Positions 45,191 to 50,623 of a stretch of 64,000 nucleotides of DNA are shown here, in pieces. This DNA comes from Haloterrigena sp. KLK7. Lineage in GTDB: Archaea; Halobacteriota; Halobacteria; Halobacteriales; Natrialbaceae. The stretch covers positions 1,488,001-1,552,000 of the forward strand of contig NZ_CP149787.1 of assembly GCF_037914945.1 (NCBI RefSeq), read 5' to 3'. Numbering within the stretch: position 1 is the first letter of the stretch; the number at the start of each line of letters is the position of its first letter. The position numbers were made by a program, and so were the translations under genes. Below the pieces are notes generated by a model. It saw nothing but the letters and a program-made list of their open reading frames with translations, was not told the DNA's origin and did no database searches.

Positions 45191-47038
45191 TCAGTTCTCG
45201 AACCGCGCTTGCACGAACGGCTGGACGTCGTCGATGTCGGAGAGTCGGGAGTCCGAGAGGAGGACGGCCTCCGTCTCCTCGAGTGGCACCGAGAGGCTGA
45301 TCTCCTTGGTGCGACCGTAGCGGCCCTTGGAGACGACGACGGCGTTGACGATCCCGAGCATGTCGAGTTCGCTGATGAGGTCGGTGACCCGGCGCTGGGT
45401 GAGAACGTCGGCGTCGATCTCCTCGCACAGGCGCTTGTAGATGTTGAACACCTCGCCCGTGTTGATGCTGTGAACGCCGTTCTTCTCGAGCAGGATGATC
45501 GCGAAGAGGACGAGCTTCGACTGCGTGGGCAGCGTGCGGACGACCTCGACGACGCGGTCGAGCTCGATCTTGTCCTGGGCCTCGCGGACGTGCTCCTCGA
45601 CGATCGTCTCGGCCTGGGAGCGTTCGGCGAGTTCGCCCGCGGTCCGGAGGAGGTCCAGCGCGCGACGCGCGTCCCCGTGCTCCTGGGCCGCGAAGGCCGC
45701 ACACAGCGGGATGACGTCCTCGGAGAGCGCGCCGCCCTTGAACGCGACCTCCGAGCGGTGCTCCAGGATGTCCCGCAACTGGTTGGCGTCGTACGGCGGG
45801 AAGACGATCTCCTCCTCGCCCAGCGAGGACTTGACGCGGGGATCGAGGAAGTCGGTGAACTTGAGGTCGTTGGAGATACCGATGATCGACACGCGGGAGT
45901 TCTCGAGTTCGGAGTTCATCCGCGAGAGGTTGTAGAGCGTGTCGTCGCCGCTCTTCTCGACGAGCTTGTCGATCTCGTCCAACATGATGACGACGACCCG
46001 CTCGTCGTAGTCGACGGCGTCGAAGAAGACGCTGTAGACGCGATCGGTCGGCCACCCGGTCATCGGCACCTCCTCGAACGACTCCTTGTCGTCCTCGAGG
46101 GACTCGATTTCGGCCTCGATCCCGCTCCGAGAGTCGAACGGCGTCGAGGCGAGGGGATGGTCCGGCGGGACGTCGTCGGATCGGTCAGCGGACGACCCGG
46201 AACCGGTCAGTTCGGGATCGGTCGTCTCGCGGTCGGGTTCGGCGTCGGCACCGTGAGCGGTACCGTCGTCGCTCCCGTTGGACGGCAGCTGGCTCGCCGG
46301 GTCCTGATCGACCGGGTCCGAGCCGGCGGGATCGGACGGTGGAGACCCCCCTGTTTCGAGTGGAGATTCGCCGGACGACGGCTCGGTTCCGGTTCCAGAC
46401 GAAACGGATTCGTCATCGGTGTCCGGAAGCGCCGATTCGAAGGGGTCGCCCTCGTCGAAGAGATCGGAGCCCTCGGTTTCGGGTCGAGCTGCGGCGTCCG
46501 CGTCCGCGCTCGCGGCCTCGTACTCGTCGAGGGCCGCGAGCAGCGACTCGAGTTCGTCGATCCGGTCGTCGATGCGGGCCTCGTTCTTCTCGATGAACTT
46601 GTTGGCCAACTGCGCGAGCACGCGATACTGGGTGTCGGTGACCTCGCAGTTGATGTACTCGACGTCGCAGGGGACGCTGTACTTCTGGGAGGTGCTCTCG
46701 AGTTCCTTGCTGACGAACTTCGCGCTGGCGGTCTTGCCCGTCCCGGTCTTGCCGTAGATGAGGATGTTCGACGGGGTTTCGCCGCGGAGCGCGGCGACGA
46801 GGATCGTCGCCATCTTGTTGATCTGGTCGCTCCGATGGGGGAGTTCGTGTGGCGTGTACGACGGTCGCAGAACCTCCTTGTTCTCGAAGATCGGTTCGCC
46901 GCTGAGCAGGTCGTCGAACAGTCCCTGACTCGACTCCTCGTCGGCGAGGTCGGACCCGTCGAAACTCGAGAACCCGCCGGTCTCGTCAGTGTGTTCGACC
47001 TCCTCTGATCTCGTCCGTTCTGAATCGTCGTCTGACAT
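45191..47038 (-). CDS. orc1: Orc1/Cdc6 origin-binding initiator
   Basis: AAA+ initiator that binds origin repeats. In 615 residues: an acidic tail, Walker A YGKTGTGKTASAK (about 96-103), Walker B VVIMLDEIDKL (about 349-357), sensor motif GISNDLKF and a C-terminal winged helix (about 500-600). Between residues about 165 and 325 is an insertion rich in Asp, Ser, Gly and Pro, far longer than in most Orc1 proteins. Start at MSDDDSERT; 42 upstream in-frame residues are not Orc-like. An Orc box sits 15-34 bases upstream of the start, so the gene may repress itself. Confidence 0.95.
   Translation of the reverse strand: MSDDDSERTRSEEVEHTDETGGFSSFDGSDLADEESSQGLFDDLLSGEPIFENKEVLRPSYTPHELPHRSDQINKMATILVAALRGETPSNILIYGKTGTGKTASAKFVSKELESTSQKYSVPCDVEYINCEVTDTQYRVLAQLANKFIEKNEARIDDRIDELESLLAALDEYEAASADADAAARPETEGSDLFDEGDPFESALPDTDDESVSSGTGTEPSSGESPLETGGSPPSDPAGSDPVDQDPASQLPSNGSDDGTAHGADAEPDRETTDPELTGSGSSADRSDDVPPDHPLASTPFDSRSGIEAEIESLEDDKESFEEVPMTGWPTDRVYSVFFDAVDYDERVVVIMLDEIDKLVEKSGDDTLYNLSRMNSELENSRVSIIGISNDLKFTDFLDPRVKSSLGEEEIVFPPYDANQLRDILEHRSEVAFKGGALSEDVIPLCAAFAAQEHGDARRALDLLRTAGELAERSQAETIVEEHVREAQDKIELDRVVEVVRTLPTQSKLVLFAIILLEKNGVHSINTGEVFNIYKRLCEEIDADVLTQRRVTDLISELDMLGIVNAVVVSKGRYGRTKEISLSVPLEETEAVLLSDSRLSDIDDVQPFVQARFEN
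46345..46366 (-). promoter_or_regulatory. Orc-box-like sequence inside the orc1 coding region
   Basis: On the bottom strand: TCTCCACTCGAAACAGGGGG, close to the origin boxes (TTCCACTCGAAACGAAGGGG). It falls in the DNA coding for the acidic insertion (residues about 224-231), not a conserved motif. It could be a further Orc1-binding site; binding is not shown. Confidence 0.4.
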
Positions 47039-47823: not shown

Positions 47824-47852
47824 CCCCCCCACCCCTTCGTTTCGAGTGGAAC
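47824..47852 (-). promoter_or_regulatory. Orc box (strong), left arm of the origin
   Basis: Bottom strand GTTCCACTCGAAACGAAGGG plus a long G-run (GTGGGGGGG). Followed on the top strand by a purine run (GGAGGGGGTGGGGGAGGGGG). Same element as 48147-48173 but in opposite orientation. Confidence 0.85.
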
Positions 47853-47885
47853 GCTACGAAGGAGGGGGTGGGGGAGGGGGCGTCT

Positions 47886-48271
47886 CTAGGACGGGAACCT
47901 TTATGACCATAGGCCAGAAACACGGTCCGTAGCACTAGCAAACTAGGTTTTTTACTAGAAGAGTTGGTTCTAGTTACTAGTCCCTACTAGGACAGCTTCT
48001 CTAGGCGGCTCGAGTTACTAGAGTCATCGCTCGACCCGAAATACTCGGTCTCAGGGTTCGTACTGTCCTTCTACCGGATATCTCGGGATCTCTACAGCGA
48101 CGTTCCACCTGATCAATACCGTTCCCCCTCCCACCCCATCGTCGCTCTCCAGTCGAAACGAAGGGGTGGGGGGCTATCTCGCGTCCAGCGAACGTTCTCA
48201 GTGTGTGATTAAGGCTCACTATGAGATCAGATTCTATAGCGAGCTAACCTAGGGGAATCTAGTATCGCTAG
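47886..48271. other. CTAG tetranucleotide cluster in the origin
   Basis: Twelve CTAG words at 47886, 47935, 47943, 47955, 47970, 47977, 47987, 48001, 48018, 48249, 48259 and 48268. CTAG is rare in haloarchaeal DNA; I see only scattered others in the rest of the window. The cluster lies between and just beyond the two strong Orc boxes. Confidence 0.85.
48147..48173 (+). promoter_or_regulatory. Orc box (strong), right arm of the origin
   Basis: CTCCAGTCGAAACGAAGGGG followed by TGGGGGG, inverted relative to 47824-47852. The shared core is TCCA-nTCGAAACGAAGGGGTGGGG. Two inverted boxes with G-runs pointing away from the A/T-rich middle is the typical haloarchaeal arrangement. Confidence 0.85.
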
Positions 48272-48602: not shown

Positions 48603-49241
48603 ATGGGACTGTTCACAGAACTCAAAGATAGTATCTCTCGGGTTACGGATCGCCTCTTCTCGGAAGAGGAACCCAAACGAATCGGTATCTACGGTCCGCC
48701 GAACGCAGGAAAGACGACGCTTGCCAACCGAATCGCTCGCGACTGGACCGGTGACGCCGTCGGTGCGGAGAGTCACATTCCACACGAAACGCGACGCGCA
48801 CGCAGGAAAGAAGGCGTCGAGATCGAACGCAACGGGAAGTCCGTGGAGATCGACATCGTCGACACGCCCGGCGTGACGACGAAGGTCGACTACGAGGAGT
48901 TCACCGACGAGATGGAGGAAGACGACGCCATCCGTCGCTCCCGCGAGGCGACCGAGGGCGTCGCCGAAGCCATGCACTGGCTGCGCGAGGACGTCGACGG
49001 CGTCATCTACGTCCTCGACAGCGCGGAAGATCCGATCACGCAGGTCAACACGATGCTGATCGGCATCATCGAATCTCGAGATCTCCCGGTTCTCATCTTC
49101 GCGAACAAGATCGACCTCGACGACGCCAGCGTCAAGCGCATCGAGGACGCCTTCCCACAGCACAAGACCATCCCCCTCTCCGCGAAGGAAGGCGACAACA
49201 TGGACGAAGTCTACGACAACATCGCGGAGTACTTCGGGTGA
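48603..49241 (+). CDS. oapA: Era-like GTPase, origin-associated protein OapA
   Basis: A 212-residue P-loop GTPase: G1 GPPNAGKTT, G3 DTPG, G4 NKID, with SAKEGDN as G5. There is no KH domain. Position directly beside the orc1 origin and ahead of a DUF2073 and a zinc-ribbon gene is the conserved haloarchaeal oapABC order, on which the name rests. Start at MGLFTELKDS, preceded by a GGAGGG ribosome binding site and a small GC hairpin (CACC-CCGC-GGTG at about 48575). Role in replication is not known. Confidence 0.92.
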   Translation: MGLFTELKDSISRVTDRLFSEEEPKRIGIYGPPNAGKTTLANRIARDWTGDAVGAESHIPHETRRARRKEGVEIERNGKSVEIDIVDTPGVTTKVDYEEFTDEMEEDDAIRRSREATEGVAEAMHWLREDVDGVIYVLDSAEDPITQVNTMLIGIIESRDLPVLIFANKIDLDDASVKRIEDAFPQHKTIPLSAKEGDNMDEVYDNIAEYFG

Positions 49242-49247
49242 TTATCG

Positions 49248-49649
49248 ATGCCAAAAGCAACTAACGCGGACGACCCGGACGCTCCTGACGGTGTCCAGAT
49301 CGACCTGATCAGCGGCGAACGGATGGAGAACATGGCCACCATGGAGAAGATCCGGATGATCCTGGACGGCGTCCACGATGGCAACATCGTCATTCTCGAG
49401 GAGGGGCTGACCCCCGACGAGGAGAGCCGGCTCATCGAGGTGACGATGTCCGAGATCAGCCCCGACGAGTTCAACGGTATCGAGATCGAGACCTATCCGA
49501 AGTCAAAGACGAAGGACTCGTCGCTGCTCGGTCGGATCATGGGCGGCGAGGAGTCCGCGGCGAAGCTGACGGTTATCGGACCCGCCAACCAGATCGAGAC
49601 GCTCCACAAGGACGAAACGCTGATCAGCGCGCTCGTATCCCGAGACTAA
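49248..49649 (+). CDS. oapB: DUF2073 family protein OapB
   Basis: A 133-residue acidic protein conserved next to oapA in haloarchaea (DUF2073). The block LISGERMENMATMEKIRMIL and later NIVILEEGLTPDEESRLIE are the recognisable core. It resembles a KH-like or RNA-binding fold according to length only; that is not shown. It follows oapA by 6 bases and its stop overlaps the oapC start by one base (TAATG), so translation is coupled. Confidence 0.88.
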   Translation: MPKATNADDPDAPDGVQIDLISGERMENMATMEKIRMILDGVHDGNIVILEEGLTPDEESRLIEVTMSEISPDEFNGIEIETYPKSKTKDSSLLGRIMGGEESAAKLTVIGPANQIETLHKDETLISALVSRD

Positions 49650-50623
49650 TGCCACACGAATGTACGAACTGCGGCCGGACGTTCCCCGACGGCTCCAAGG
49701 AGATGCTGTCGGGCTGTCCCGACTGCGGTGGGAACAAGTTCCAATTCGCACCCGCCGCGCGGGCCGCGACCGGCACGAGCGAGTCGGCCACCGCGAACGC
49801 GGCCGATTCGGCGGGCGATCCCGGCGGGAACGCGGCCGAAGCGGCCGACGACGCCGGCACGGTCGAACGCGCCGCAGAGACCGTTCGTGACTGGGTCTCG
49901 TCGGATACGAACCGATCCGCGAATCAATCGCCGACCGACGTCGACGATCAAACGGAGCACTCCTGGCCCTCGAGCGACGACCCGGCCGACGGCGCGGACG
50001 CGACGCCAGCCGGTCAGTTCGAGGAGTGGCCGGAGACAGCCCGCCGGCCCGAGGATCGGTCGCCGTCGGACGCGGACGCTTCCTCGGCATCGACGCCGAC
50101 AGCGGATGCGTCCACGTCGTCGACGCCGACGCCAGACGCTTCCTCGGCGTCGACACCGACAGCGGACGCCTCCCCGTCGTCCTCGAGTGCGAACGCGGCG
50201 GCCGAAGCCGCCGATTCGCCGGACGAGCGGTCGATCATGGCCGACAGCGAGAACGACGCGCAGGCCGACGCCCGGACCGAGGTCGTTTCGACGAACGATC
50301 TACCCGACAAATCGCCCCAGAGCGATCGGGTACCGGACGCTCCGTCCGACGAGGCCGCTCGAGCGGCCGAGCCGGGCGACGGTACCGACGCCCCGCCCAG
50401 CGACGGCCGGGTCGTCAGCGAACCGTCGGGGGAGCAGCCCTCGATCGAGGAACTCCGGGAGGAGCTCAACGAACAGTTCGAGAGCATCAAGATCGTCAGT
50501 CCGGGGCAGTACGAACTCAATCTGATGGAACTCTACAATCGCGAGGAGTACATCATCTCCCTCCAGGAGGACGGTCGGTACGTCATCGACGTCCCGGATT
50601 CGTGGCGGGACGACGAGGAGTAA
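49649..50623 (+). CDS. oapC: Zinc-ribbon protein OapC
   Basis: A 324-residue protein in three parts. The N-terminal zinc ribbon has CTNCGRTFPDG (Cys5, Cys8) and SGCPDCGG (Cys24, Cys27). A long disordered middle contains tandem repeats of DASSASTPTA type around residues 145-185. The conserved C-terminal domain runs from about residue 270: EQFESIKIVSPGQYELNLME then YIISLQEDGRYVID. It is the third gene of the origin-linked operon, whose conservation suggests a role tied to replication. Confidence 0.88.
   Translation: MPHECTNCGRTFPDGSKEMLSGCPDCGGNKFQFAPAARAATGTSESATANAADSAGDPGGNAAEAADDAGTVERAAETVRDWVSSDTNRSANQSPTDVDDQTEHSWPSSDDPADGADATPAGQFEEWPETARRPEDRSPSDADASSASTPTADASTSSTPTPDASSASTPTADASPSSSSANAAAEAADSPDERSIMADSENDAQADARTEVVSTNDLPDKSPQSDRVPDAPSDEAARAAEPGDGTDAPPSDGRVVSEPSGEQPSIEELREELNEQFESIKIVSPGQYELNLMELYNREEYIISLQEDGRYVIDVPDSWRDDEE

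Follow-up and report, generated by a model that had tools for sequence, protein, structure and literature searches.

A conserved array of CTAG sites within oriC1 of Haloterrigena sp. KLK7, candidate targets of a solitary methyltransferase

At oriC of Escherichia coli, sequestration by the Dam/SeqA system operates with clustered GATC sites. How archaea prevent an origin from firing twice is poorly known. In haloarchaea, Blow et al. (2016) described clusters of CTAG upstream of orc1/cdc6 genes, found that they correlate with an orphan m4C CTAG methyltransferase, and proposed a role in replication control (PMC4752239). It is a stated open question what leads most haloarchaea to retain a solitary CTAG methylase whose target is strongly avoided (PMC6471742), and the presence of conserved CTAG arrays at several origins links this puzzle with the control of re-firing. 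Both the clusters at orc1/cdc6 and the replication hypothesis are already published (PMC4752239), and the array described here is a further, finely resolved example. In the literature examined we did not find site-level conservation of such an array, a divergent second array, a genome-wide rank of CTAG clusters, or phylogenetic caution about the link to the methylase.

The window, by which we mean the whole stretch of DNA analyzed, comprises 64,000 nt of Haloterrigena sp. KLK7 (GCF_037914945.1; contig NZ_CP149787.1, positions 1,488,001-1,552,000, forward strand). A sequence-only reading of this DNA had noted twelve CTAG words in about 385 bases, between and next to two Orc boxes, and only scattered copies elsewhere. 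The count and coordinates proved exact, with twelve CTAG in 386 bp (47886-48271), and the remaining 63.6 kb of the window holds just 17. Nine of the twelve lie between the cores of the two origin recognition boxes (ORBs) and form the main array (47886-48021, no strand assigned), with starts at 47886, 47935, 47943, 47955, 47970, 47977, 47987, 48001 and 48018. The other three, at 48249, 48259 and 48268, form a second small group (48249-48271, no strand assigned) directly outside ORB2, 83-102 bp past it; similar small groups outside ORB2 are present in the orthologous loci L006, L009 and L012. The window as a whole is depleted in CTAG, with 29 copies compared with about 90 expected from dinucleotide shuffles. 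At the rate found outside the array, 0.10 CTAG would be expected in 386 bp, and the Poisson probability of 12 is ~3e-21. A composition artefact as the source of the array was ruled out on three grounds: (i) Dinucleotide shuffles of the 386-bp stretch itself contain 4.2 CTAG on average and reached 12 in only 1 of 5000 cases. (ii) Seven other half-GC palindromes, which served as controls, occur 0-3 times each in the same stretch. (iii) The neighboring segment 47701-47800, which belongs to the same intergenic region and is equally AT-rich (39% GC), has no CTAG, and base composition therefore does not account for the array.

Judged by its anatomy, the array-bearing stretch is a canonical haloarchaeal oriC1, in which orc1, ORBs, G-rich repeats and oapA-oapB-oapC stand together. 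The layout is that of PMC3936714: an orc1/cdc6 gene adjoins the origin, the ORBs are inverted and accompanied by G-strings, and a G-rich inverted repeat lies between them. ORB1 with its C/G-string was located in the sequence at 47824-47852 on the minus strand (core 47832-47844, CCCCTTCGTTTCG), and ORB2 with its G-string at 48147-48173 on the plus strand (core 48154-48166, CGAAACGAAGGGG). Almost every Natrialbales locus has the same ORB1 core, inverted, upstream of OapA. The first arm of the G-rich inverted repeat occupies 47861-47880 (plus strand) and the other arm 48124-48137 (no strand assigned); in Haloarcula hispanica oriC1, a G-rich inverted repeat at the matching position is an enhancer (PMC3936714). 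The initiator gene of oriC1 (45191-47038, minus strand), which encodes a 615-aa Orc1/Cdc6, was assigned by a match above cut-off to NCBIfam NF001625 and by the Pfam domains Cdc6_lid and Cdc6_C. Beyond ORB2, all on the plus strand, are a 212-aa GTPase in the OapA position (48603-49241; MMR_HSR1 GTPase, placed beside oapB and oapC) and the origin-associated proteins OapB (49248-49649; PF09846, E 4e-43) and OapC (49649-50623; PF09845, E 5e-29). As a separate observation, the oriC1 Orc1 carries a long acidic low-complexity insertion in its AAA+ region (window 46100-46580, residues ~155-315), and its 615 aa compare with ~410-430 aa for most of the other full-length Orc proteins examined in the genome.

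To determine the conservation of individual sites, orthologous origins were retrieved with the gene in the OapA position as an anchor. In Natrialbales, six CTAG stand in a constant register from the ORB1 core, at about +54, +103, +123, +145, +155 and +186, which correspond to 47886, 47935, 47955, 47977, 47987 and 48018 in the window. In an alignment of 44 Natrialbales origins, conservation is 0.87 in the CTAG columns, compared with 0.62 in their flanks and 0.58 in the other columns. The sites at +123 and +155 read CTAG in all 44 origins (the former split across two neighboring alignment columns), and the other register sites do so in 42, 41, 38 and 22. Ranked by conservation among 235 4-mers of this alignment, the CTAG at +155 comes first. 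Enrichment in orthologous origins, the check that the sequence-only reading had set for its idea, was found: each of the 48 scorable Natrialbales origins has at least three CTAG between its ORBs, for a total of 304 observed versus 95 expected (3.2-fold), and enrichment is 2.2-2.8-fold in other families that encode the CTAG-type methyltransferase (Zim family, see below). The array is thus a non-coding CTAG cluster upstream of orc1/cdc6 that is conserved at orthologous positions.

The alignment also revealed an element, AGAAACACGGTCCGTAGCACTAGCAAA, which is the consensus of 44 origins and lies at 47916-47942 on the plus strand, where it contains the CTAG at 47935. Within oriC1 it is preceded by a conserved, promoter-like CTTTAT (the two together spanning window 47893-47942). 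Other families have a related element, AAAC..CCGTA. Its orientation is reversed in Natronococcus and in several Haloferacaceae-type origins, which would fit a segment that can flip between the inverted ORBs. Four Natronococcus species have a rearranged inter-ORB segment that is still rich in CTAG, and the conserved element is reversed in three of the four.

A fixed register from ORB1 could mean that the CTAGs belong to sites bound by a sequence-reading origin or nucleoid protein, in which case methylation would not be involved and Zim would be irrelevant. The recurring context of the sites points the same way, as many of those in Natrialbales oriC1 read TTACTAG, and there is a precedent in UBP, which acts at the Sulfolobus ucm motif (PMC12141716). 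The inner sites also fit the 10.5-bp helical period (p = 0.03 with the period left free, for five inner sites in one lineage), although the extra sites and other families deviate from this period, and we therefore reduce helical phasing to a hint. Set against a sequence-reading protein are origins that lack Zim, which have ORBs but almost no CTAG, and the array at the second origin of this genome.

At that origin, orc1 lies at C1:3466277-3467512 and the array, beginning at C1:3468254, consists of eight CTAG in 43 bp (CTAGttCTAGctCTAGttCTAGCTAGtCTAGaaCTAGagCTAG). It occupies L119:3255-3300 (G000:C1:3468254-3468299), ~740 bp upstream of orc1/cdc6 and past ORB-like repeats that are peculiar to this origin. 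All 11 Natrialbales orthologues of the second origin have 3-8 CTAG, located ~530-880 bp upstream of the orc start. The copies mostly follow each other in 4-6 bp steps, e.g., CTAGCTAGaaCTAGatCTAG, have other flanking letters than those in oriC1, and change rapidly between species. TTACTAG as the real unit was accordingly rejected, as it holds for Natrialbales oriC1 but is absent at the second origin, and no one extended motif of the ucm/UBP kind is common to all the arrays. What the two origins have in common is CTAG density. Because the second-origin arrays keep CTAG but differ in spacing and context, CTAG itself, the target of the methylase, is favored as the selected unit, and it appears from these sequences that selection acts on it rather than on one longer motif. 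We regard a sequence-reading protein as unlikely, although it deserves serious consideration.

The location of the array within oriC1 invites a structural explanation. A nearest-neighbor stability profile delimits a low-stability, AT-richer core at 47901-48050 (no strand assigned), the presumed unwinding element, and eight of the nine inner CTAG fall in this core, where the inter-ORB DNA is least stable. CTAG might serve only to provide easily unstacked TA steps for unwinding, with neither methylation nor specific readers involved; consistent with such a role, origins without Zim are rich in TATA/ATAT instead. However, TTAA, AATT and TATA show no enrichment in Natrialbales origins, in contrast to the 3.2-fold enrichment of CTAG; the neighboring 39% GC stretch does without CTAG; and the two sites that are invariant in 44 origins are difficult to reconcile with a purely structural requirement. 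We consider this explanation rather improbable. A related proposal, in which m4C alters how stable the unwinding element is as a duplex and full versus hemimethylation thereby tunes its melting, would likewise suit the position of the array, but a literature overview gives no indication that N4-methylcytidine destabilizes the duplex (PMC4477647), and such an effect is in our estimate very improbable.

To rank the array within the genome, we scanned its 4.64 Mb for CTAG triples with gaps of at most 24 bp. Such triples occur at only nine loci, and three of these are upstream of confirmed orc1/cdc6 genes: C1:1535935 (oriC1), C1:347050 and C1:3468254. Clusters are therefore present at several origins of one genome. 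An AAA+ ORF near a fourth cluster (C1:243479) was considered as a further orc1/cdc6, but it is short and not confirmable and was left out of the count. In four other genomes with Zim, the same scan placed 7 of 13 triple loci within 1.5 kb of an orc gene (1/1 in G119, which is oriC1, 2/2 in G324, 2/3 in G078 and 2/7 in G102), the most distant of the seven being 1.4 kb from orc with one gene intervening. In three genomes without Zim, none of the seven triple loci is near an orc gene, and several of them are plain tandem repeats. The remaining loci of the Haloterrigena genome include two further clusters. Nine CTAG in ~125 bp, away from any origin, separate a DUF1616 gene from a winged-helix gene (L115:3038-3165; G000:C1:279537-279664), where they are perhaps an operator. 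Close to a glycosyltransferase gene, four CTAG are part of an iterated 20-bp repeat (CTAGTGGN..TCCTA; L114:2970-3033; G000:C1:264569-264632).

These data bear on the possibility that the array reflects no more than relaxed avoidance, i.e., that mutation, restriction or repair removes CTAG from the genome and that copies simply build up in intergenic DNA free of constraint. The depletion of CTAG across the window agrees with a purge, and changes at the conserved sites are often from CTAG to TTAG, as expected of mutable methylcytosine. On the other hand, the origins exceed the shuffle expectation and are not merely undepleted, specific CTAG sites are the best-conserved 4-mers in them, and the arrays recur at origins rather than in random intergenic DNA. 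We disfavor relaxed avoidance and rate it the least probable of the explanations. The array is real, specific to origins, conserved in position and repeated at another origin.

The genome encodes a 353-aa N6_N4_Mtase with an SPPY motif (G000:C1:3191427-3192485, minus strand). On sequence grounds, this enzyme is a solitary CTAG-type methyltransferase of the Zim family, whose CTAG specificity we infer from family traits and species distribution (PMC6471742, PMC5867850); the methyltransferase that the idea of methylation control presupposes is thus predicted to be present. Zim was found in 249 of the 292 genomes sampled from the class, with all 43 absences in one family of the group, a pattern that agrees with earlier reports on where the orphan CTAG methylase occurs (PMC6471742, PMC5867850). 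In the neighborhoods of 16 genomes there is no conserved gene beside zim, which indicates that the methylase is solitary, and no gene for a reader of hemimethylated sites is conserved next to it in these 16 zim neighborhoods. Natrinema versiforme and N. pallidum both have the array at their origins (L023, L024), and SMRT data put m4CTAG at 97.0% of sites in the former and 98.7% in the latter (PMC6696651). By analogy with these two species, the oriC1 CTAG sites of the present strain are probably methylated as well. A second solitary-looking DNA methylase, with a SAM-binding motif ahead of the catalytic motif, is located at L112:1225-2307 (PADLOC MTase_II PDLC03284).

Across the scored origins, the number of CTAG between the oriC1 ORBs follows the presence of Zim. 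Observed and expected numbers are 304 and 95 in Natrialbales (48 origins), 92 and 33 in other Zim-positive families (28 origins), 54 and 25 in Zim-positive Haloferacaceae-type genomes (31 origins), and 4 and 13.2 in Zim-negative genomes (23 origins, at most one CTAG each). This corresponds to 0.17 CTAG per origin without Zim versus 1.7-6.3 with it. Other palindromes show no such pattern, and the Zim-negative origins retain their ORBs and have TATA/ATAT in place of CTAG. Within one family the raw association of array and Zim has a Mann-Whitney p of 2e-6. Under phylogenetic regression, p is 0.028 for that family and 0.165 when every scored origin outside Natrialbales is included, and independent contrasts provide five pairs on supported branches, which is too few. 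Zim losses are confined to one family, the Zim-positive origins of which also hold fewer CTAG, and there are Zim-positive lineages with few or no CTAG in oriC1 (Halorussus, Halogranum, Salinarchaeum and others). In a number of Halorubrum-type genomes (L141, L143-L145, L147, L154, L155, L163-L166, L177-L181) the gene in the OapA position is present but the origin neighborhood is split, with neither orc1 nor an ORB pair beside oapA within 10 kb upstream; many Halorubrum-type zeros are therefore loci where oapA no longer adjoins orc1, and are uninformative. For these reasons we rejected a straightforward statement that the array disappears when Zim is lost, convincing as the raw data look: the contrasts are too few and the Halorubrum-type zeros come from split loci. 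The link between array and methylase is suggestive but not established, and it is only weakly independent of phylogeny.

Taken together, our preferred reading is that the array in the presumed unwinding region of oriC1 consists of selected targets of the orphan m4C Zim methyltransferase, and that the methylation mark alters re-firing of the origin; we hold it tentatively and give it somewhat less than an even chance. The oriC1 CTAG sites would be methylated by Zim, which is encoded elsewhere in the genome, and a fork leaving the origin would render the sites of the array hemimethylated. The hemimethylated mark would then change the readiness of the origin to fire again, most likely as a delay until remethylation, acting through a putative reader or through Orc1/MCM loading. 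Because CTAG is rare elsewhere, so dense a mark would be possible almost only at origins. A bolder form, in which m4C-CTAG arrays (in oriC1 with fixed register and partly in helical phase) are an archaeal counterpart of SeqA/Dam that marks new origins as hemimethylated, with a putative reader blocking re-initiation at several origins, is by analogy conceivable but speculative, and we think it unlikely. Evidence against a role for methylation comes from Haloferax volcanii, which shows no growth defect without its CTAG methylase and in which only oriC2 is CTAG-rich (PMC5867850); the result used against the idea is thus from a species with a CTAG-rich oriC2 only. Natrialbales such as Natrinema are a better test bed, having a strong oriC1 array and origin-based vectors (PMC5350488). 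The earlier proposal of CTAG-methylation control of this origin is thus supported in part: the orthologous enrichment and the encoded methyltransferase speak for it, the idea itself is not new (PMC4752239), and the correlation with the methylase can be separated from phylogeny only weakly.

Comparison with described systems places the array as follows. Like the Sulfolobus ucm/UBP system, it involves a short conserved element other than an ORB in an unwinding region between ORBs (PMC12141716); unlike ucm, it occurs in haloarchaea and consists of a methylatable tetranucleotide present in many dispersed copies, and PMC12141716 contains no CTAG motif or link to methylation. With the oriC1 of the Haloarcula hispanica type it shares an adjacent orc1, oapA-oapB-oapC alongside, an AT-rich core and a pair of inverted ORBs that have G-strings and flank a G-rich inverted repeat. 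CTAG dominates the AT-rich core of the present origin but goes unmentioned in the descriptions of the Haloarcula one (PMC3936714, PMC3528665). The resemblance to Dam/SeqA at the E. coli origin lies in a solitary methylase and in the clustering, within the origin and between its initiator boxes, of a palindrome that can be methylated. The mark differs, being m4C rather than m6A, as does the genomic background, in which CTAG is rare and GATC common; initiation is by archaeal Orc1/MCM, and the likeness is one of sequence, with a hypothetical effect on initiation. We know of no SeqA counterpart for the CTAG system. Closest are the clusters of Blow et al. (2016), which likewise lie in non-coding DNA upstream of orc1/cdc6, at two or more origins of genomes that encode an orphan methylase (PMC4752239). 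In the present analysis, by contrast, the methylase link was tested phylogenetically and came out weak, and the array was resolved to single sites, with a register from ORB1, invariant positions, a divergent second array and a genome-wide rank.
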